Assembly (NCBI GenBank): GCA_025055115.1
Contig: JANWYJ010000013.1
Span: 62,001 to 126,000 of the forward strand
From: Gemmata sp.
GTDB taxonomy: Bacteria; Planctomycetota; Planctomycetia; Gemmatales; Gemmataceae
DNA length: 64,000 bases
Reading direction: 5' to 3'
The notes beneath the pieces were generated by a model. That model made no database searches. It was not told the origin of the DNA and saw nothing but the letters and a program-made list of their open reading frames with translations. Positions 26,186 through 34,642 of the stretch are shown in pieces; position 1 is the first letter of the stretch, and the number at the start of each line of letters is the position of its first letter. A program made the translations under genes and the position numbers.

Positions 26186-27502
26186 TCAAGCGACAATCAT
26201 TTCGCGTGCGAACCAACCACCCCAGCGTCCTAAACCGCACACGGCGGCTAGCGACCGACTCCAAGAACGTGTCAGCAACTCTCGGACGATCTGTCGCGAG
26301 GCAGCCGACAACAGCCGCGCAAAGGTAATTCCTAAGGCGAGGCGGCGGGTTTCGCGCACAGCCAGCAGCCGCATCGTGTCGTGGCGGGCCGCTGCGGACG
26401 TTCGCCATAACTGATACACGGCTTGACGCAGTTCGACACTACCCGGATCGGAGCTGACGAACAAGTCGTAAAGCCCCATCGAAAGCAACTCAGGAACGCG
26501 ACCGGCGAAGTAACGCTTGGCAGCGAATTCTTCCACAGTCGCCGACTCCGCAAGGGTTACAGCATCCAGAAAACCGACCGACATGCCCACCGCGCAGAGA
26601 GGATGGCAATGCCCCACAGCATCACCGATCAACGCCATCTTTCCACGGCCGTAATATCGCCGCCGCAACAACTGATTGGCCGCCACAGCCGGTGCGTCCG
26701 TTTCCAATGCCTTCTGGCAGGCATCGGCGATCGGGCCAGGAAGGATCGAGCGATAAGCCCTCACCAACTCGTGCGGGTGACGAATCCACATTACGCGATC
26801 CGCGGGAACATCGAAACACACCCGTGCTTGCGTCGCGTTGACGCGAAATGCCAGCACCGGCCCGGGCCCCCCCAGAAAAACGTTCCCATGCTCGGGATAC
26901 GGCAAAACCGCTGCTGGAATCAGAAAACCGGCCATGTACGAGACCGGACGGCCGTTGCCGGCATAACCAAGCTTTTGCCGAACAACCGACTGGCGACCAT
27001 CCGCCCCCACCACCCAGTCGCTGCGCAACGTAACCGAATGTGCTCGCCGGGCACAAACCGCCACGACCTTCCCTGGCCCCACATCCACAACACGATAACC
27101 GTGAATGACGTGGATATTCGGGATTTGCGCCATCGTGGCGTGCAACGCCTGCACAAGCCAATGATGCTGGCAGCCAACCCCCAACTCCCCCCCCACATAG
27201 GAGAGGACAATCGGCGTACTCCCTGCCGGGAAGATCGCGAAGCCACGACCGCAGGCATGCGGAACGCCCTGCTTCGTCAAATCTACACCCAAATGGGAGA
27301 GCACACTGGCTCCCGTGGGGTGAAGCCACTCGCCCGCCAAGCGTGTCGGGGCACAACCCGCATCAATCACACACACACGCACACCGCGGCGCGCCCAAGC
27401 CAGCGCGGCGACGCAGCCCACCGGCCCTGCCCCTACAATCGCGACATCCGCCGTCAACTGCCTACCAACGGATCGCGCATCCTGCGTCAGCAAAGACATC
27501 AT
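26186..27502 (-). CDS. Squalene monooxygenase-like FAD enzyme
   Basis: A 438-residue flavin monooxygenase. The dinucleotide fold GAGPVGCVAALAWARRG is near residue 24, the DG motif reads VVGADGRQSVVR, and the GD motif reads MALIGDAVGHCHPLCAVGMSVGFLDAVTL, comparable to GDAxNMRHPLTGGGM in squalene epoxidases. The C-terminus has weakly hydrophobic helices. It should make 2,3-oxidosqualene for the cyclase two genes on. FAD hydroxylases of UbiH type are the alternative; gene context decides. The gap to the methyltransferase is 33 bases. Two adjacent ATGs (27502, 27499) are possible starts. Confidence 0.8.
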   Translation of the reverse strand: MMSLLTQDARSVGRQLTADVAIVGAGPVGCVAALAWARRGVRVCVIDAGCAPTRLAGEWLHPTGASVLSHLGVDLTKQGVPHACGRGFAIFPAGSTPIVLSYVGGELGVGCQHHWLVQALHATMAQIPNIHVIHGYRVVDVGPGKVVAVCARRAHSVTLRSDWVVGADGRQSVVRQKLGYAGNGRPVSYMAGFLIPAAVLPYPEHGNVFLGGPGPVLAFRVNATQARVCFDVPADRVMWIRHPHELVRAYRSILPGPIADACQKALETDAPAVAANQLLRRRYYGRGKMALIGDAVGHCHPLCAVGMSVGFLDAVTLAESATVEEFAAKRYFAGRVPELLSMGLYDLFVSSDPGSVELRQAVYQLWRTSAAARHDTMRLLAVRETRRLALGITFARLLSAASRQIVRELLTRSWSRSLAAVCGLGRWGGWFAREMIVA

Positions 27503-27614
27503 GCACTCGTGTTCATGGAAAGAGAATGAAGTTTTCTACAGTGAGGAATTCACGGACCCACACTGGCGTGATGGTCCGAATGTGTTGAATCTGGCCTCCT
27601 GGATGAACTTTCAA

Positions 27615-27683
27615 GGACCGAACACATTGCCTCAGCGTGTTGGTTTTATGGACCGAACGCATTGCCTCAGCGTGTTGGTTTTA
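27615..27683. repeat. 34-bp tandem duplication
   Basis: Units at 27615-27648 and 27650-27683 are identical except for one base, both running GGACCGAAC to GTTGGTTTTA. They lie in the 27503-27882 gap between the sterol operon and the molybdenum/tungsten operon. Confidence 0.93.
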
Positions 27684-27778
27684 CTCGGAATGACGAATTT
27701 ATGCAATTCCGGATTTGTACTGCCATGAGTTTCTGGATGGCAATTTCGCTCGCGATCAAGGGAAGGAGAAGTATCGAG

Positions 27779-27810
27779 GGAAGGATCAGGGAAAGGAAGG
27801 ATCAGTGAAA
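27779..27810. repeat. 16-bp tandem duplication
   Basis: GGAAGGATCAGGGAAA (27779-27794) is followed directly by GGAAGGATCAGTGAAA (27795-27810), just upstream of the predicted promoter. Confidence 0.85.
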
Positions 27811-27825
27811 GAGAGAACGCACGGC

Positions 27826-27866
27826 TCGACATCTCGCCGAACCAGTATATACTGGTACTCAGTACC
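27826..27866 (+). promoter_or_regulatory. Promoter with overlapping operator palindromes (Mo/W operon)
   Basis: TCGACA (27826-27831, one mismatch to the -35 consensus), a 16-base spacer and TATACT (27848-27853, -10) lie just before the CsoR-like gene. The perfect palindrome ACCAGTATATACTGGT (27841-27856) covers the -10, and a second, GGTACT-C-AGTACC (27854-27866), overlaps its end near the expected transcription start. Such placement suits repressor binding, perhaps by the first gene's product. Confidence 0.55.
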
Positions 27867-27882
27867 CCCAACGAGGACTGGC

Positions 27883-28179
27883 ATGCCTTCCCGCTCCGAC
27901 CCCCCCCTCGTGGTCTATGATGATTCGATCCGCCAGGAGCTGCACGATCGCCTTGGCAAAGTCGAAGGCCAACTTCGTGGCATCGGTCGGATGATCGACC
28001 ATCAACGGCCCCCGGAGGAGGTTTTGCAACAGCTGGCCAGTATCCGTTCGGCCGTCAAAAGTATTACGAAAGCGGTCATGCGCTCGTACATCGTCGGGTG
28101 TGCGGCCGAAGCGGCTCGTTCTGGTGATGGAGCTCTTGATACGATGTTGGAAATGTTGCTGAAATTTGTGAAGGAGTGA
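27883..28179 (+). CDS. CsoR/RcnR (DUF156) family regulator lacking the metal-binding triad
   Basis: A 98-residue all-helical regulator; ATG 27883 has GAGG about six bases upstream. RQELHDRLGKVEGQLRGIGRMID and VLQQLASIRSAVKSITKAVM are the DUF156 core. In CsoR, copper is bound by Cys-His-Cys; here the first position reads RPPEEVL (Pro for Cys) and the second reads MRSYIVGC (Tyr for His), so only the last Cys remains. It is unlikely to sense copper. As first gene of a molybdate/tungstate operon with palindromes over its promoter, it may be an autoregulator responding to oxyanions or another signal. Confidence 0.8.
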   Translation: MPSRSDPPLVVYDDSIRQELHDRLGKVEGQLRGIGRMIDHQRPPEEVLQQLASIRSAVKSITKAVMRSYIVGCAAEAARSGDGALDTMLEMLLKFVKE

Positions 28180-28185
28180 AGCTCG

Positions 28186-28836
28186 TTGACCGCGTGCGAT
28201 CCGGAATTGTGGTCGATTGTAACGTTGACGCTGCGCGTCACACTGGTGGCATTGGTGATCGCATCGGTTCTGGGCATTCCTCTGGGTGTGTGGTTGGGTC
28301 TGGCTCGCTTTCCAGGCAAACGGCTCTTTGTGGCGCTGGTTTATACCGGCATGAGCCTTCCTCCCGTGGTCGTCGGTTTGCTGGTGTACATGCTGTTATC
28401 GCGGAGCGGTCCTCTGGCGTTTTTGGAATGGCTTTTTACACCCCAAGCGATGATTGTGGCCCAAACGGTGATAGCCCTGCCCCTTATTGCCGGATTGGTC
28501 ATGGGTGCTGTTGCTGCGGTACCCGGGGACCTGGTGGGGCAAATCCGCAGCCTCGGAGCGACCCCGTGGCAAGTGCGGTGGGCGGTCTTACGCGAAGCGC
28601 GTGTGGGGGTGTTGTTTGCACTTTTGGTTGCTTTTGGCCGGATTGTGAGTGAGGTGGGCGCGGCCTACATGGTTGGTGGGAATATCCAAGGGCATACTCG
28701 GGTGTTGTCGACGGCGATTATGATGGAGACTGGGAAAGGCGATTTCGCCCTCGCTTTGGCCTTGGGGGGATGGCTGATGGTTTTGGCTTTGAGTGTGAAC
28801 CTTGCCGCCATGCGCTTACAGGGGAGATCGCTGTGA
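28186..28836 (+). CDS. tupB: Tungstate-type ABC transporter permease TupB
   Basis: A 216-residue permease starting at TTG 28186, preceded by AAGGAG nine bases away. It has about five to six helices; VLGIPLGVWLGLARFPGKR, SLPPVVVGLLVYMLLSRSGPL and the docking loop QIRSLGATPWQVRWAVLREAR followed by AFGRIVSEVGAAYMVGGNIQGHTRVLSTAI are typical of TupB/WtpB-like channels. It is six bases after the regulator and overlaps the ATPase gene as GTGA. Confidence 0.88.
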   Translation: MTACDPELWSIVTLTLRVTLVALVIASVLGIPLGVWLGLARFPGKRLFVALVYTGMSLPPVVVGLLVYMLLSRSGPLAFLEWLFTPQAMIVAQTVIALPLIAGLVMGAVAAVPGDLVGQIRSLGATPWQVRWAVLREARVGVLFALLVAFGRIVSEVGAAYMVGGNIQGHTRVLSTAIMMETGKGDFALALALGGWLMVLALSVNLAAMRLQGRSL

Positions 28837-29561
28837 ACCGCACTCTGGCCTATCGGCTCGAAAATGTCGCGGTTCAGCATGGTTGGCGCGAAGTTCTTCA
28901 TTTGCCGACGTTGGAGGTTTTCGCCGGGGAAATTCTCTGTTTAGTGGGTCCACCGGGTTCAGGGAAAAGCACGCTCTTGCGACTTTTAGCGGGTTTACAA
29001 CGACCCAGCCGCGGCCAGGTGTGGTTTCACGGCGAACTCTTGAACTATCCGATGCCTATTACGGTCCAGCGGACCATCACATTGGTGTTCCAGCGACCTC
29101 TGTTGCTCACGGGCACGGTGCGTTCGAATGTGGAGTATGGCTTGCGCATTCGCGGTGATGCCCAACGGCACCAAAAAGCCCTGGCGATCTTGGAGCGGAT
29201 GCATTTGGCTCACCTCGCCGATCGACCGGCCAGCGCCATTTCTGGCGGGGAGGCCCAACTCGTGGCTGTGGCACGGGCGTTGGCTATCGCCCCTGAAGTA
29301 CTGTTACTCGATGAACCCACGAATAATCTGGACCCGGCGCGGGTCGCATTGGTCGAAGAGGTTGTTCTTGCAGACCACAAGTTGCGTGGCACAACGGTGG
29401 TTTGGGCAACGCACAATCATTTCCAAGCGCGCCGCGCCGGTTCGCGTGTCGCTCTTTTGCTCGACGGTCGATTGATTGAAACGGCTGCGGCCACCGATTT
29501 CTTTGCCATGCCGCGCGACGCGCGGACTGCCGCATTCATCCAAGGCCAGATGGTGTACTAA
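28833..29561 (+). CDS. tupC: Tungstate-type ABC transporter ATPase TupC
   Basis: A 242-residue ATPase starting at GTG 28833, which overlaps the tupB stop. Walker A is VGPPGSGKS, the Q-loop is LVFQRPLLLTGTVRSNVEYGL, the signature is ISGGEAQLVAVARALA and Walker B is VLLLDEPTNNLDP. It powers the TupB channel. The next ATG lies one base after its stop. Confidence 0.88.
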   Translation: MNRTLAYRLENVAVQHGWREVLHLPTLEVFAGEILCLVGPPGSGKSTLLRLLAGLQRPSRGQVWFHGELLNYPMPITVQRTITLVFQRPLLLTGTVRSNVEYGLRIRGDAQRHQKALAILERMHLAHLADRPASAISGGEAQLVAVARALAIAPEVLLLDEPTNNLDPARVALVEEVVLADHKLRGTTVVWATHNHFQARRAGSRVALLLDGRLIETAAATDFFAMPRDARTAAFIQGQMVY

Positions 29562-29562
29562 T

Positions 29563-30393
29563 ATGGGCATGCGATGGTTCTTCATCCTCTGTGGAATTCT
29601 CGTTGTCTGTAGCGGTTGCCTCAATGCTCCGGAGAAGTGCATTACATTGGCCACCACCACCAGCACGCGCGATACCGGTTTACTCGATGAATTGATACCC
29701 CGCTTCCGGGCCAAAACGGGTATCGAGGTGCGCGTGGTCGCGGTCGGTACGGGTCAGGCGCTGGAGATTGGCCGGCGCGGCGATGCTGACGTGTTGCTGA
29801 CTCACGATCCGGCCGCGGAACAACGTTTCCTCCATGAACATCAGGGTACGTCCCGGAATGAATTGATGACCAACGACTTTGTCTTGGTCGGACCACCCGA
29901 CGACCCCGCCAACGTCCGGGCGGCGCCATCCGGCGCCGACGCTTTCAGACGCATTGGGCAAGCCCAAGCCGTTTTCATCTCCCGGGCCGATGAATCGGGA
30001 ACTCACCACAAGGAAAAAGCTACCTGGCTGGCAGCAGGGCTGGAACCCGCTGGCGACTGGTACATTCGTTGCGGCCAGGGCATGGGCGCTGTGCTACGCA
30101 TGGCTGATGAGAAACGCGGCTACACGCTGGCTGATCGCGGTACCTTTATCGCCCAGCGGGCAAAGTTGAACCTGGCCATTCTCCATTCGGGCGATCCGGA
30201 ATGGATCAACCGGTATTCCGTGATTGCCGTCAACCCGCAACAGCACCCACATGTCAAGGATGTTTGGGCCGCCGAGTTCATTACCTATCTTTTGTCGAGT
30301 GAAGCTCAACAGATTATTGCGGAATTTGGTCGTAGCCAATACGGGGAACCGCTATTTCGTGCCAGTCGCTGGCCACTGAGGAATGGGCATTGA
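29563..30393 (+). CDS. tupA: Tungstate-binding periplasmic lipoprotein TupA
   Basis: A 276-residue substrate-binding protein from ATG 29563. A short signal peptide ends in a lipobox (VVCSGC, Cys about 20). ITLATTTSTRDTGLLDELIPRFRAKTGIEVRVVAVGTGQALEIGRRGDADVLLTHDP is near-diagnostic for TupA, where the TTTSTRDTG loop grips the oxyanion. FISRADESGTHHKE is the second ligand loop. It delivers tungstate (possibly molybdate) to TupBC. Its TGA overlaps the next ATG by one base. Confidence 0.9.
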   Translation: MGMRWFFILCGILVVCSGCLNAPEKCITLATTTSTRDTGLLDELIPRFRAKTGIEVRVVAVGTGQALEIGRRGDADVLLTHDPAAEQRFLHEHQGTSRNELMTNDFVLVGPPDDPANVRAAPSGADAFRRIGQAQAVFISRADESGTHHKEKATWLAAGLEPAGDWYIRCGQGMGAVLRMADEKRGYTLADRGTFIAQRAKLNLAILHSGDPEWINRYSVIAVNPQQHPHVKDVWAAEFITYLLSSEAQQIIAEFGRSQYGEPLFRASRWPLRNGH

Positions 30394-31670
30394 TGAGGCC
30401 CCCAGCGCTTCGCGCTTCACGCACGCCCATAGCCGTGATGAAGGTTCTTTACCTTCTCGCGGTTACGGTGGTGGTATTCTGCCAGACAGCCGTGGAGGAA
30501 TCGCTGACGGCCTGGATCGTGGGTGGGCTGTTCGCCCTGCAAGTGGTCATCCTTCTGGGTTGTGGTGTACCCCGTCGTGAACTTGTGCGCCCCTTGGCAC
30601 GCCTAAAGTGGTTTTTTGTCATTCTCTTTGGCGTCTATGCGTTTGTGCCTGGAGACGAGGAAGAGATCCCAGCCCGCTGGCAAGCGGTGTTCATAATCGG
30701 CCAGTGGGTGTGGATCAACCGCACTGGTATCGCCCACGCGGGTTTCATCAGCCTTCAGATTCTGACGGTCATCTTCGCAGCAGCGGTTGTCCGTCGGATC
30801 GGCCCGCCTACGGATTTCGTGGTTGGCTTGCAGGCCCTGGGTTTGCCCAAACTCTTCGTGTACTCCCTCCATCTCATCCTGGCCCAACTCACTGGCCCAG
30901 GACCAACACCCCGTGCTGGTCGTGGCCATGAATCCGCCATGGACAACTCCCCGGGATTCTTCACCATTTGGCGACAGTTGATCCGCGGTGATGTCACCCT
31001 GCTCACACTGGCGATCCACGCTGCTTTTGCGAATGCCCAGCGGCAGTTAGAAACGGAAATGCCTGAACCGCTTGACCCCCGACGGTCTCACGACGTTGTC
31101 GTGATTGCGGGCATCGGCGGGATGATGATCGGATTGAAGATGCTGAAGCTCTTGCCAGGAGTGCCGATTGCCAGCGGCCACAAGACTTTGCTGTTATTTC
31201 CCCTTTATTTGCTCGCAGCCCGACTGACCTCTACCCGTTGGGGTGGAACCACCGCGGGGGCGGTGATGGGCGTTGTGGCGTTTTTACAAGGTGATGGGCG
31301 CTTTGGGATTTTTGAAGTTCTGAAGCACTTGGCTCCGGGTTGCCTCATCGACCTCCTGATGCCTGTGGTACGACGGTTACCCACGCGGGCATGGGTTTAT
31401 TGCGGTGTCGGATTGCTGGCCGGCTTCGCCCGCTTGGCGGCGGAAATCGTTGTCCTCCTGCTCTTGGGGACTCGCGCGGAGGTCTACCTCTTTTGGAGCG
31501 TGAAATTACTCCCAACACTGGCCGCAGGTTTGCTGAGTGGCTTTGTCACCCTCGCGGTTGTGCGGGCCTTTCCCACCGGTCGTTTACCGGAGGCTGACAA
31601 CCGCGACAACAAAGCCCTGTCACCAACCCAGAAACCCCTACTCATCGGTCCTTCTCAGGAGAAGCCGTGA
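30393..31670 (+). CDS. Large membrane protein, possible ECF-type T/S-component fusion
   Basis: A 425-residue protein with about ten membrane segments in two halves separated by a hydrophilic stretch (about 165-235). The N-terminal half (LARLKWFFVILFGVYAF, FISLQILTVIFAAAVV, LPKLFVYSLHLI) faintly recalls EcfT/CbiQ proteins. The C-terminal half (KTLLLFPLYLLAARLTSTRWGGTTAGAVMGVVAFLQGDGRFGIFEVLKH) resembles ECF substrate-binding components. This reading is tentative. It overlaps tupA by one base and mosA by four, so it is translationally coupled into the molybdenum/tungsten operon. Confidence 0.5.
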   Translation: MRPPALRASRTPIAVMKVLYLLAVTVVVFCQTAVEESLTAWIVGGLFALQVVILLGCGVPRRELVRPLARLKWFFVILFGVYAFVPGDEEEIPARWQAVFIIGQWVWINRTGIAHAGFISLQILTVIFAAAVVRRIGPPTDFVVGLQALGLPKLFVYSLHLILAQLTGPGPTPRAGRGHESAMDNSPGFFTIWRQLIRGDVTLLTLAIHAAFANAQRQLETEMPEPLDPRRSHDVVVIAGIGGMMIGLKMLKLLPGVPIASGHKTLLLFPLYLLAARLTSTRWGGTTAGAVMGVVAFLQGDGRFGIFEVLKHLAPGCLIDLLMPVVRRLPTRAWVYCGVGLLAGFARLAAEIVVLLLLGTRAEVYLFWSVKLLPTLAAGLLSGFVTLAVVRAFPTGRLPEADNRDNKALSPTQKPLLIGPSQEKP

Positions 31671-32530
31671 CAGAAATCATCCAAGAAGGGGCAGGCCGCC
31701 GCACGCATATCCGCAGCCCCCTCATGCGGGAATCGCTGATGGATCGTCACGTGTTGACGGCCACCGATCAGCAGCCGGTGTTACCCATCCTGCCTGATGT
31801 TCACGTTGTTCACATCGGTGGGGCAAGCATTCTCGATCGCGGCAAGGCGGCCATCGTTCCGCTGTTGGATGAAATTGTTCGCTGTCGGCAGAAATACAAA
31901 ATTCTCCTGGGCGTTGGTGGCGGCGCCCGGATGCGGCACACTTACCACATCGCGTTGGATTTGGGGATTCCTACCGGCGGTTTGGCAATGGTCGCTGGGG
32001 CAGTCAACGAACAAAACCGCTACATGGTTCAAGCCCTTTTGGCCAAACATGGGGGCGTTGTTCTCCACAAAGACCACTATGTGGTACTCCCCTTGTGGTT
32101 GGCGTCGGGGATGATTCCGATTCTCAGTGGAATGCCGCCCTATCACTATTGGGAACCACCCACCGGTGTACAGCGCATCCCCCATTATCGGGAAGATTTT
32201 GGTTTATTTATGGTCAGCGAGGTGTTGGGTGCCGCCTCGATGATCTTTGTGAAAGATGAAAACGGCCTGTACACTGCGGACCCTAAACGACACCCCGAAG
32301 CACGCTTCATTCCCACGATCACGGCTCAGGAGATTCTGGCCAGTGATTTCCCCGACTTGATCATCGACCGATCCGTCCTGGAAAGTATGGTCCATGCTCG
32401 TAACACGCGCCGGATTCAGATTATCAATGGGCTGAAGCCCGAACTGTTAGCGCGGGCTTTGGCCGGAGAACCGGTGGGTACTGTGATCACGGCACCGCCT
32501 GTGGAGAAGGAGTCTGTCAATGCCCCGTGA
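31667..32530 (+). CDS. mosA: Molybdenum storage protein subunit (amino-acid-kinase fold)
   Basis: A 287-residue protein starting at GTG 31667 (GTGA overlap with the previous gene). It has the amino-acid/UMP-kinase fold of the Azotobacter molybdenum storage protein: PDVHVVHIGGASILDRGKAAIVPLLDEI, LLGVGGGARMRHTYHIALDLGIPTGGLA, SGMPPYHYWEPP, MIFVKDENGLYTADPKRHPEARFIP and INGLKPELLARALAGEPVGTVI. MoSto packs molybdate or tungstate into polyoxometalate clusters using ATP. Which of the two genes matches alpha or beta is a guess. Confidence 0.85.
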   Translation: MTEIIQEGAGRRTHIRSPLMRESLMDRHVLTATDQQPVLPILPDVHVVHIGGASILDRGKAAIVPLLDEIVRCRQKYKILLGVGGGARMRHTYHIALDLGIPTGGLAMVAGAVNEQNRYMVQALLAKHGGVVLHKDHYVVLPLWLASGMIPILSGMPPYHYWEPPTGVQRIPHYREDFGLFMVSEVLGAASMIFVKDENGLYTADPKRHPEARFIPTITAQEILASDFPDLIIDRSVLESMVHARNTRRIQIINGLKPELLARALAGEPVGTVITAPPVEKESVNAP

Positions 32531-33341
32531 AGCCCCCGCGCGCAAAACCATCGCTACCCCGTTGGGTGAAAGCACACTCGACGCCGCCGACCTGTTGAAC
32601 AACACATCCTATGGGCCGCCCATTCGTGTATTGCCAGATGTTCATGTGATTAAAGTGGGTGGGCAGAGTTTCTTCGATCGTGGCCGCTCAGCGGTCGCGC
32701 CGTTGGTGGAGGAAATCGCCGCGTGTGCGAAATCGTACCAGCTCCTGATCGGTATGGGCGGTGGCACCCGGTCGCGGCATGCCTACAGCCTGGGTTTGGA
32801 GCTGGGACTGCCAACGGGAATTCTCGCAGCGATGGGAGCTTCGACGGCACTGCAGAATGCCCATCTGATGCAAATGTTGCTCGCCAAGCACGGCGGGATT
32901 TTGACAAGTTTTGAGGAATTTGAGAAGTTACCGCTGTATCTGCGCGCTGGGTGTATTCCCGTGATGGTGGGCATGCCGCCGTTCCACCATTGGGAACGTC
33001 CGCCCGAAACTGGTCGCATTCCTGCCAACCGCACCGATGCCGGGGTGTATCTGATGGCCGAGTTTCTGGGCGCAAAGTCGATGATCTACATCAAGGATGA
33101 AGACGGGCTTTACACAGACGATCCCAAAAAGAATCCGTCCGCGACATTTATCCCCCACATCAGCGCAGGGGAGTTACTGGCGATGGACCCCAACGATCTG
33201 GTCATTGAACGGGTCGTTCTGAGTTATCTCCAAAAAGCCCATCATGTCCGATCCGTCCAAATCATCAATGGTCTGAAGCCGGGATTATTGACCCGGGCAC
33301 TGGCGGGCGAACACGTCGGTACGATTATCACCGCGGAGTAA
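32520..33341 (+). CDS. mosB: Molybdenum storage protein subunit (second paralogue)
   Basis: A 273-residue paralogue of the preceding gene, overlapping it by 11 bases; AAGGAG lies seven bases before the ATG. PDVHVIKVGGQSFFDRGRSAVAPLVEEIAAC, LLIGMGGGTRSRHAYSLGLELGLPTGILA, VGMPPFHHWERP, MIYIKDEDGLYTDDPKKNPSATFIPHIS and INGLKPGLLTRALAGEHVGTIITAE closely follow the MosB pattern. The pair should build a hetero-hexameric storage cage. It ends the operon. Confidence 0.88.
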   Translation: MPREAPARKTIATPLGESTLDAADLLNNTSYGPPIRVLPDVHVIKVGGQSFFDRGRSAVAPLVEEIAACAKSYQLLIGMGGGTRSRHAYSLGLELGLPTGILAAMGASTALQNAHLMQMLLAKHGGILTSFEEFEKLPLYLRAGCIPVMVGMPPFHHWERPPETGRIPANRTDAGVYLMAEFLGAKSMIYIKDEDGLYTDDPKKNPSATFIPHISAGELLAMDPNDLVIERVVLSYLQKAHHVRSVQIINGLKPGLLTRALAGEHVGTIITAE

Positions 33342-33385
33342 CCATCCAGCCATGTCCGTAGCACGGCGGCGGCCGGTGTTCGTCG

Positions 33386-33426
33386 ATGGTTCACTTGATG
33401 CACCCTAATGGTTCACTTGATGCACC
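33386..33426. repeat. 19-bp duplication of a gene 3' end
   Basis: ATGGTTCACTTGATGCACC occurs at 33386-33404 and 33408-33426. The second copy contains the stop and final codons of the minus-strand PQQ-like gene; the first copy lies just beyond its stop. Confidence 0.95.
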
Positions 33427-34642
33427 ACAAATGTTGCGCTCCGCGGATGAAGATTTCCCCATCCGAAAACGCCGGGGACGCGAAAACCTTCTCACCCAGA
33501 GGGTTTTTGGCCAACAGTTCATACTCCTCGCTGGCTTTCAAGACATAAGTGACGCCTTCGTCAGAAGTTAGGTAAATACGCCCATCGGCAACGACCGCCG
33601 AGGCGTGATGCTTGGAGCGGCTGAGCTGTTCTTGCCAGAAGAGTTTTCCGGTTTTGACATCCCAACAGCTGGCCCGGCCGCGATCGTCAACCAAATACAA
33701 TCGACCTTGGTACGCTACGGGCGAGGGCACATAACCACCTTCATTCTTCACCGACCAGGCCACATGCGTCTTGGTGACATTGCCGCGGCCATCAGGTCGA
33801 ATCGCCATGATCCAATGGACGGGAAACCCTGCGGTCAAAAGGATCAGGCCATCATGGGCCACCACACTGGAGACGAACTGTTCGGTAGGGCCATCGACGA
33901 TCCACCATTGTTCACCGGTCGCGGGGTTGTAGCTCGCGACACATTTACTGCCAGTCAGCACCATCTGTTTTCTGCCGGCAACATCCACAATCACGGGAGG
34001 GCAATAGGAACGGAGCTTGTTGGGGCGGTCGATGCGCCATTTTTCCTCGCCGGTGGTTTTGTCGAGAGCGACGATATAGGCTGATTTTCCACTGGGGGCG
34101 TCTTGATCGGCGTTGATAATGACGAGGTCGCGATACAGCAGCGGTGAACTGCAAAAGCCGTGGACCGAGTGGAACTCACCGGGGTTTTTCTGCCAAATCA
34201 ACTGACCCGCGTAGTCGTAGCAGTACACCCGCAATTGCGGGGCGTCGAGGAATGTCACGTAGATGTAACGACCGTCGGTCGCGGGGGTGGAGCTGGCCCA
34301 GCTATTTTCGGTATGCTTGCGTTCGAGGGGGGAGACCAAAACCGTTTTCTTCCACAGCAGCTGGCCGTTTTGACGATCAACGCAGTACAGCATTCGGGCC
34401 TTGTCGGCTTCTTCACAACCGGTAACGAACACCCGGCCATTGCAAACGATGGGCGAAGAATGACCACTCCCTGGTAACTCCAACTTCCAGCGGACATGGT
34501 CCGTCGCATTCCACTTGAGGGGGAAGCCTTGATCGGTCACGGTACCGTCAGAACGGGGGCCACGCCAGCTAGGCCAATCTTCGGCGAATGCTGGATTGAT
34601 GCCGAGGCAAACGATCCCCACAAGAGCGAAACGCGCCACCAT
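33413..34642 (-). CDS. Secreted PQQ-like beta-propeller protein
   Basis: A 409-residue protein from ATG 34642 (GGGAG ten bases upstream); the frame extends further but only with non-signal sequence. A signal peptide (ARFALVGIVCLGINPAFA) precedes DWPSWRGPRSDG, a common start of planctomycete PQQ-like propellers. Repeats such as RVFVTGCEEADKARMLYCVDRQNGQLLWKK, SAYIVALDKTTGEEKWRI and GRASCWDVKTGKLFWQE are the WD40/PQQ blades. No catalytic residues or cofactor evidence. It may be a scaffold or a quinoprotein-like protein outside the cytoplasm. Confidence 0.82.
   Translation of the reverse strand: MVARFALVGIVCLGINPAFAEDWPSWRGPRSDGTVTDQGFPLKWNATDHVRWKLELPGSGHSSPIVCNGRVFVTGCEEADKARMLYCVDRQNGQLLWKKTVLVSPLERKHTENSWASSTPATDGRYIYVTFLDAPQLRVYCYDYAGQLIWQKNPGEFHSVHGFCSSPLLYRDLVIINADQDAPSGKSAYIVALDKTTGEEKWRIDRPNKLRSYCPPVIVDVAGRKQMVLTGSKCVASYNPATGEQWWIVDGPTEQFVSSVVAHDGLILLTAGFPVHWIMAIRPDGRGNVTKTHVAWSVKNEGGYVPSPVAYQGRLYLVDDRGRASCWDVKTGKLFWQEQLSRSKHHASAVVADGRIYLTSDEGVTYVLKASEEYELLAKNPLGEKVFASPAFSDGEIFIRGAQHLWCIK

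Follow-up and report, generated by a model that had tools for sequence, protein, structure and literature searches.

A stretch of 64,000 nucleotides of Gemmata sp. DNA (assembly GCA_025055115.1, contig JANWYJ010000013.1, positions 62,001 to 126,000; hereafter the window) carries at positions 27883-33341 seven plus-strand genes, which encode a CsoR-like regulator, the TupB-, TupC- and TupA-like parts of a putative tungstate/molybdate importer, a membrane protein named here MemP, and two subunits of the molybdenum storage protein (MoSto) type, MosX1 and MosX2. The operon exists and is conserved. It is a new combination of known families, and three of its parts (the Mos proteins, the regulator and MemP) depart from the families to which they belong. 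We consider it reasonably probable that the seven genes form a single transcription unit for the uptake, storage and handling of tungstate and/or molybdate, with MemP as the partner of the Mos ring. The titles and abstract openings surveyed in the open literature contained no report of a mos-tup operon or of a planctomycete MoSto.

Conservation and linkage of the seven genes

A first-pass annotation of the window, made from its sequence, had proposed a compact seven-gene operon behind one promoter, and this description was confirmed. The genes follow one another in the order csoR-tupB-tupC-tupA-memP-mosX1-mosX2 with intergenic spacings of +6, -4, +1, -1, -4 and -11 bp, and a single promoter-like site was found. 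Searches of Pfam, NCBIfam and PDB sequences recovered the families claimed for the regulator, TupA and both Mos proteins, with the scores given below.

The conservation of the linkage had been set beforehand as a test on which the proposal could fail, and the linkage held. A sample of 297 genomes of the class was searched with MosX2 (E ≤ 1e-20) and with MemP (E ≤ 0.001). Relatives of MosX2 were present in seven genomes and MemP matches in six, five of which were true after the match in genome G227 (E 5e-4) was dropped, its reading frame looking YrdC-like by eye. The true memP gene adjoins mos genes in all five genomes. The full block, identical in gene order, is shared by four planctomycete genomes, which represent two families, namely the window's genome (G000), G022 (Gemmata; L008), G157 (L016) and G007 (L017); L008 and G022 gave identical match figures and were treated as one record, counted once. 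Since the set of seven is inherited or transferred as a whole from species to species, it probably constitutes one working unit. In genome G107 a convergent memP comes after the mos pair, and no tup or csoR match was detected within the 18-kb stretch around them. The mos genes of G171 lie at a contig start, with no MemP on the visible side. Profile searches covered 45 genomes in family f3 and 95 in family f1 and found MemP in 2 and 3 of them, respectively, all found previously. A phylum sample of 392 genomes gave three MemP matches, including the window's own; the match in G450 (E 7e-4) was dropped because by eye it is an ordinary EcfT followed by an ATP-binding cassette (ABC) ATPase, and the third, in G436, is considered in the Discussion. 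Searches of viral contigs and of plasmids yielded no relative of MemP. At L018 and L034 a methyltransferase-like gene, recognised by eye, lies directly 5' of the mos pair and is a possible second conserved neighbour.

The genes flanking the operon are common to the window and L008. When L016 and L017 were compared with the window stretch 19-42 kb (E ≤ 1e-15), they matched only within the seven-gene block. The operon proteins of G000 are 59-87% identical to those of G157 and 57-87% identical to those of G007; for two adjacent reference genes, a small number on which the transfer comparison rests, the corresponding values are 55% and 47% (G157) and 42% and 50% (G007). G007 and G107 belong to the same family and their reference genes are 61% and 68% identical, whereas the mos genes of the window are 45-51% identical to those of G107 and 83-87% identical to those of G007. 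As the flanks differ in two genomes and the operon proteins are more alike than the reference genes, the simplest reading is that the block probably moved horizontally as a unit.

The Mos proteins and their putative cluster site

The genes mosX1 (31667-32530) and mosX2 (32520-33341) encode proteins that match the beta subunit of Azotobacter vinelandii MoSto (2ogx_B) over nearly their full length (E 1.5e-68 and 5.5e-79, respectively). Full-length homology and the presence of two tandem paralogous subunits place the pair in the MoSto family, and A. vinelandii MosAB (2OGX) likewise consists of two tandem amino-acid-kinase-fold subunits. The ligand and lysine positions were evaluated in an alignment with both MoSto alpha and beta. 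The position of lysine 45, a residue with a kinase-type role, is occupied by His in all four MosX1 proteins and by Lys in the 15 other rows examined, including MoSto alpha and MosX2; these rows leave out the first subunit of G171, which is truncated. The equivalent of the alpha cluster ligand His140 is Trp in MosX1 and Tyr in MosX2. Glu129 and His156 are named as ligands of the alpha cluster in PMC4504029. In each of the four operons MosX1 has His and MosX2 has Ser at the position of Glu129; the equivalent of His156 is His in 8/8 operon subunits and is never His in the ten other planctomycete Mos rows. The pair thus differs from A. vinelandii MosAB in two cluster ligands and in the MosX1 lysine position, and also in that its genes share their operon with those of an importer, a regulator and MemP.

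Phylogenetic analysis grouped MosX1 with MosX2 (support 94/93, with a long-branch warning). In approximately unbiased (AU) tests, MosX1 as alpha and MosX2 as beta were possible (p = 0.087 each), and the opposite pairing gave p = 0.046 and 0.045. An origin of both subunits from the beta lineage was rejected as a conclusion, because the AU tests leave the alpha/beta pairing possible despite the tree. None of the nine mos genomes carried a nifH over the cut-off, so the storage is probably not for nitrogenase. Molybdopterin enzymes were present in 9/9 of these genomes. The AFOR_N domain was found in four of the nine, but the genome of the window lacks it, and tungsten aldehyde oxidoreductases were consequently discarded as the purpose of the operon.

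The importer and its association with storage genes

The importer genes comprise tupB (28186-28836), encoding the permease, tupC (28833-29561, GTG start chosen), encoding an ABC ATPase (PF00005, 106 bits), and tupA (29563-30393), encoding the substrate-binding protein. TupB scored 242 bits against NF038017 (cut-off 100) and 159 bits against the tungstate model NF041773 (cut-off 320). TupA scored 213 bits against NF041772 (cut-off 400); its best support came from the tungstate-binding protein 3lr1 (E 3e-66), and it is closest to solved tungstate-binding proteins. From these matches the transporter would work like Tup, and the equivalog label is unearned. The likeness to TupABC tungstate importers lies in the presence of all three parts in one operon and in the 3lr1 match, while the NCBIfam scores under the cut-offs and the storage genes in the same putative transcription unit set this operon apart. 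Eubacterium limosum likewise has both tungstate import, by TupABC, and a dedicated storage protein, Tub (PMC11980592); Tub, however, is of the TOBE-domain type and bears no relation to the kinase-fold Mos ring.

A mos pair also lies beside an importer, in these cases one of the molybdate type, in two planctomycete genomes that are more distant. In G330 modA-like, modB and modC-like genes come after the pair and share its strand; in G352 the modABC-like genes adjoin mos divergently. ModB of both genomes and ModC of G352 exceed the NCBIfam cut-offs (TIGR02141, TIGR02142), and the ModA genes of both and ModC of G330 were identified by eye. In these neighbourhoods mod replaces tup, and no csoR-like or MemP gene was found. 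Together with the four full blocks, the comparison supports the link between import and storage put forward in the first-pass annotation, and we regard the import-storage logic of the operon as well supported by these comparisons. Mos relatives were also present in ten Azospirillum plasmid records; beside mos in the two stretches examined no importer genes were annotated, in a gene table that is incomplete. Some mos genes of these plasmids (L076, L077) bear the annotation 'uridine kinase' or 'uridine monophosphate kinase', and others that of molybdenum storage protein subunit alpha, so that relatives of MoSto are under-recognised.

The regulator and its putative operator

The first gene of the operon (27883-28179) encodes a CsoR/DUF156-like regulator with a PF02583 domain (68 bits, cut-off 22.8). 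Position X of the DUF156 WXYZ fingerprint is a conserved Cys in the known metal-sensing subgroups (PMC5016687). The four operon regulators have Pro, Ala, Ala and Val at this position, the His of position Y is Tyr in all four, and the last Cys is retained in three. The regulator had been called unusual in the first-pass annotation, and the loss of the sensor cysteine in 4/4 proteins, together with the His-to-Tyr change, makes that description stronger than it was.

The promoter-like site TCGACA-16-TATACT lies on the plus strand at 27826-27853, with the -35 box at 27826, and has 10/12 matches. It is the sole such site on the scanned 27450-33600 interval; dinucleotide shuffles average 2.8 such sites, and therefore only its position is telling. 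L008 has a comparable TCGAC...TATACT arrangement. A candidate operator, TACTGGTACNNNGTACC (27850-27866, plus strand), overlaps the -10 region. It is found directly 5' of the regulator gene in the window, in L008 (5426) and in L017 (5897), and the 64-kb window has a single copy of its core, GGTACNNNGTACC, against 0.05 expected from mononucleotide shuffles. TAC/GTA inverted repeats have been described for CsoR-family sites (PMC10318464). The system is thus similar to CsoR, RcnR, InrS, FrmR and CstR in the PF02583 fold and in a TAC/GTA inverted repeat at the promoter, and differs from them in the lost sensor cysteine and histidine. The region 27450-28000 gave no Rfam match.

The membrane protein MemP

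The memP gene (30393-31670) was assigned an ATG start inside a listed open reading frame that begins with TTG at 30390. The window's own MemP had no Pfam or NCBIfam match at E ≤ 0.001, and its kinship to energy-coupling factor (ECF) transporters is visible mainly via its relatives. CbiQ models matched 5/5 MemP proteins at E ≤ 10, the best values being 1.4e-6 (Pfam) and 4.2e-8 (TIGR02454); for the window's MemP these models gave only 0.2 and 0.0068, over about residues 17-162. In whole-genome scans MemP was above the CbiQ cut-off in G107, G022 and G436 and not in G000. A local CbiQ hidden Markov model built from seven sequences did not find MemP, and hhalign of the T half of MemP against the same seven CbiQ proteins gave a score of 29 (E 0.0015). 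On the basis of these matches, we regard the N-terminal half as T-component-like (CbiQ/EcfT).

T components dock to the ECF ATPase through two cytoplasmic Arg signatures, according to PMC3246461. Both signatures were present in 7/7 CbiQ controls from the same genomes, to which the patterns had been fitted, and in 0/5 MemP proteins; several MemP relatives have a Gly/Arg-rich stretch in their place. Beside memP, no ATPase gene except tupC was matched, and in G107 not even tupC. Because the Arg signatures are missing and no EcfA gene lies alongside, MemP is probably ECF-derived and probably not an ordinary ECF importer. The earlier claim of an ECF-like membrane protein therefore stood for the N-terminal half, while the suggestion of a second ECF-type uptake route became less likely with the docking motifs missing. 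Elsewhere in the window's genome an EcfA-EcfT pair is encoded on contig C66 (L069, 3094-4592); no CbiM gene was recognised beside it, and the CbiM of this genome is on contig C60.

The C-terminal half of MemP was examined by structure prediction. An AlphaFold model of full MemP built with two sequences was useless (predicted local distance difference test, pLDDT, 39), and the C-terminal half alone gave six helices at low confidence (pLDDT 57). Among the 50 Foldseek matches listed for this half, seven ECF S-component chains had the top template modelling scores (0.41-0.49), and no match of any kind reached E 0.001. A second structural aligner ranked two PanT S components highest (Z 8.7 and 8.4), but unrelated chains followed closely, among them one of complex I (Z 8.1). 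An S-component fold of the C-terminal half is thus likely according to the model. Kinship of this half to CbiM, to which SGH and GDG motifs recognised by eye had pointed, was left unproven: hhalign with an alignment of at most 30 CbiM proteins (29 by count) gave a score of 12, whereas 100 column shuffles averaged 14, and unfiltered HMMER searches in both directions returned no significant MemP-CbiM match. Compared with CbiMQO and BioMNY, MemP matches CbiQ models with its N-terminal half and may be S-component-like in its C-terminal half, but it joins the T and S-like halves in one chain, without the Arg signatures and with no EcfA alongside. A Gly-rich run between the two halves was observed in L040 (3905-4806, over 20 Gly) and in the linkers of L016, L017 and L018, and not in the window's own protein.

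Other features around the operon

Two head-to-tail, near-identical 35-bp units (GGACCGAAC...GTTGGTTTTA) are located at 27615-27684, approximately 200 bp 5' of the regulator gene. Directly 3' of the operon, at 33386-33430, a direct repeat of about 19 bp (ATGGTTCACTTGATGCACC) is present in two copies 22 bp apart. On the minus strand, 26186-27502 encodes an FAD monooxygenase-like protein with a squalene-epoxidase match (PF08491); this gene adjoins the operon also in L008, and not in L016 or L017.

Discussion

The seven gene products suggest the following scheme. TupA would bind the oxyanion outside the cell and TupBC would import it with ATP, as expected from their families. MosX1 and MosX2, whose fold is assigned by homology, would form a MoSto-type ring gathering the oxyanion as a polyoxometalate; the ring would have a remodelled cluster site, with the kinase-type site intact in MosX2 and altered in MosX1. 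The CsoR-like protein would repress the operon at TACTGGTACNNNGTACC and would be released by a signal that bypasses the sensor cysteine. MemP, derived from an ECF transporter, would combine in one chain a half that is T-like and another that is probably S-like. It would have lost the contact with an ECF ATPase and would most likely act as the membrane-side partner of the Mos ring, passing the oxyanion or a counter-ion, which is the least certain step of the scheme.

Several observations weigh against this scheme. The equivalents of Glu129 and His140 are kept in 0/8 operon subunits, so two of the three known cluster ligands are lost. TupA and TupB remain under the curated NCBIfam tungstate cut-offs, TACTGGTACNNNGTACC is missing in L016, and the S-component fold of the C-terminal half of MemP is unproven. 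The coupling of MemP to mos is not strict either. G064 has a mos pair with a short C-terminal MemP remnant at the same convergent position as in G107 (31 residues, 61% identical, E 5e-6; in another search 40 residues, 50%, E 3e-6), and G436 (86% complete) has a genuine MemP-like gene at a contig end and no mos match. Neither MemP nor mos strictly needs the other.

These points leave room for other explanations. MemP could be a conventional ECF importer, powered by TupC or by an EcfA encoded elsewhere, such as that on C66, and would then provide a second uptake route. ECF ATPases are shared between transporters, an EcfA-EcfT pair with no CbiM recognised beside it is available in the genome, and all five MemP relatives match CbiQ models; we nevertheless consider this unlikely, given the Arg signatures absent from every MemP and present in every CbiQ of the same genomes, and given the lack of any ATPase gene but tupC beside memP. 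We are similarly doubtful that MosX1 and MosX2 form a kinase-fold ring that stores an oxyanion other than Mo or W, or that serves as a nucleotide-dependent sensor. The replaced ligands in 4/4 operons and the replaced lysine of MosX1 would fit such a ring, but the His156 equivalent is kept throughout, a Tup importer is linked in all four block genomes, and the His of MosX1 at position 129 could still bind a cluster. A detoxification device, in which the repressor is released at high oxyanion levels and the ring sequesters the excess, agrees with the loss of DNA affinity that CsoR-family repressors undergo upon effector binding (PMC5016687); it appears less probable still, as the importer that the operon also encodes, one of a high-affinity type, would increase the load. 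Finally, as a speculation to which we give little credence, MemP and the Mos ring might be a transporter-cage couple, in which an ECF-derived protein without an ABC ATPase docks an ATP-using kinase-fold ring, a single step moves the oxyanion across the membrane and locks it into (or frees it from) clusters, and the CsoR-family repressor senses the oxyanion itself. A unit for uptake, storage and handling, with MemP as the ring's partner, remains our preferred interpretation.

The operon places MoSto relatives in planctomycetes without a nifH over the cut-off, within a block that was apparently transferred from one family to another. How Mo or W enters and leaves the MoSto cage is, to our knowledge, still open. 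MemP, a candidate membrane partner of the cage, keeps its place next to mos even in the absence of a nearby tup.

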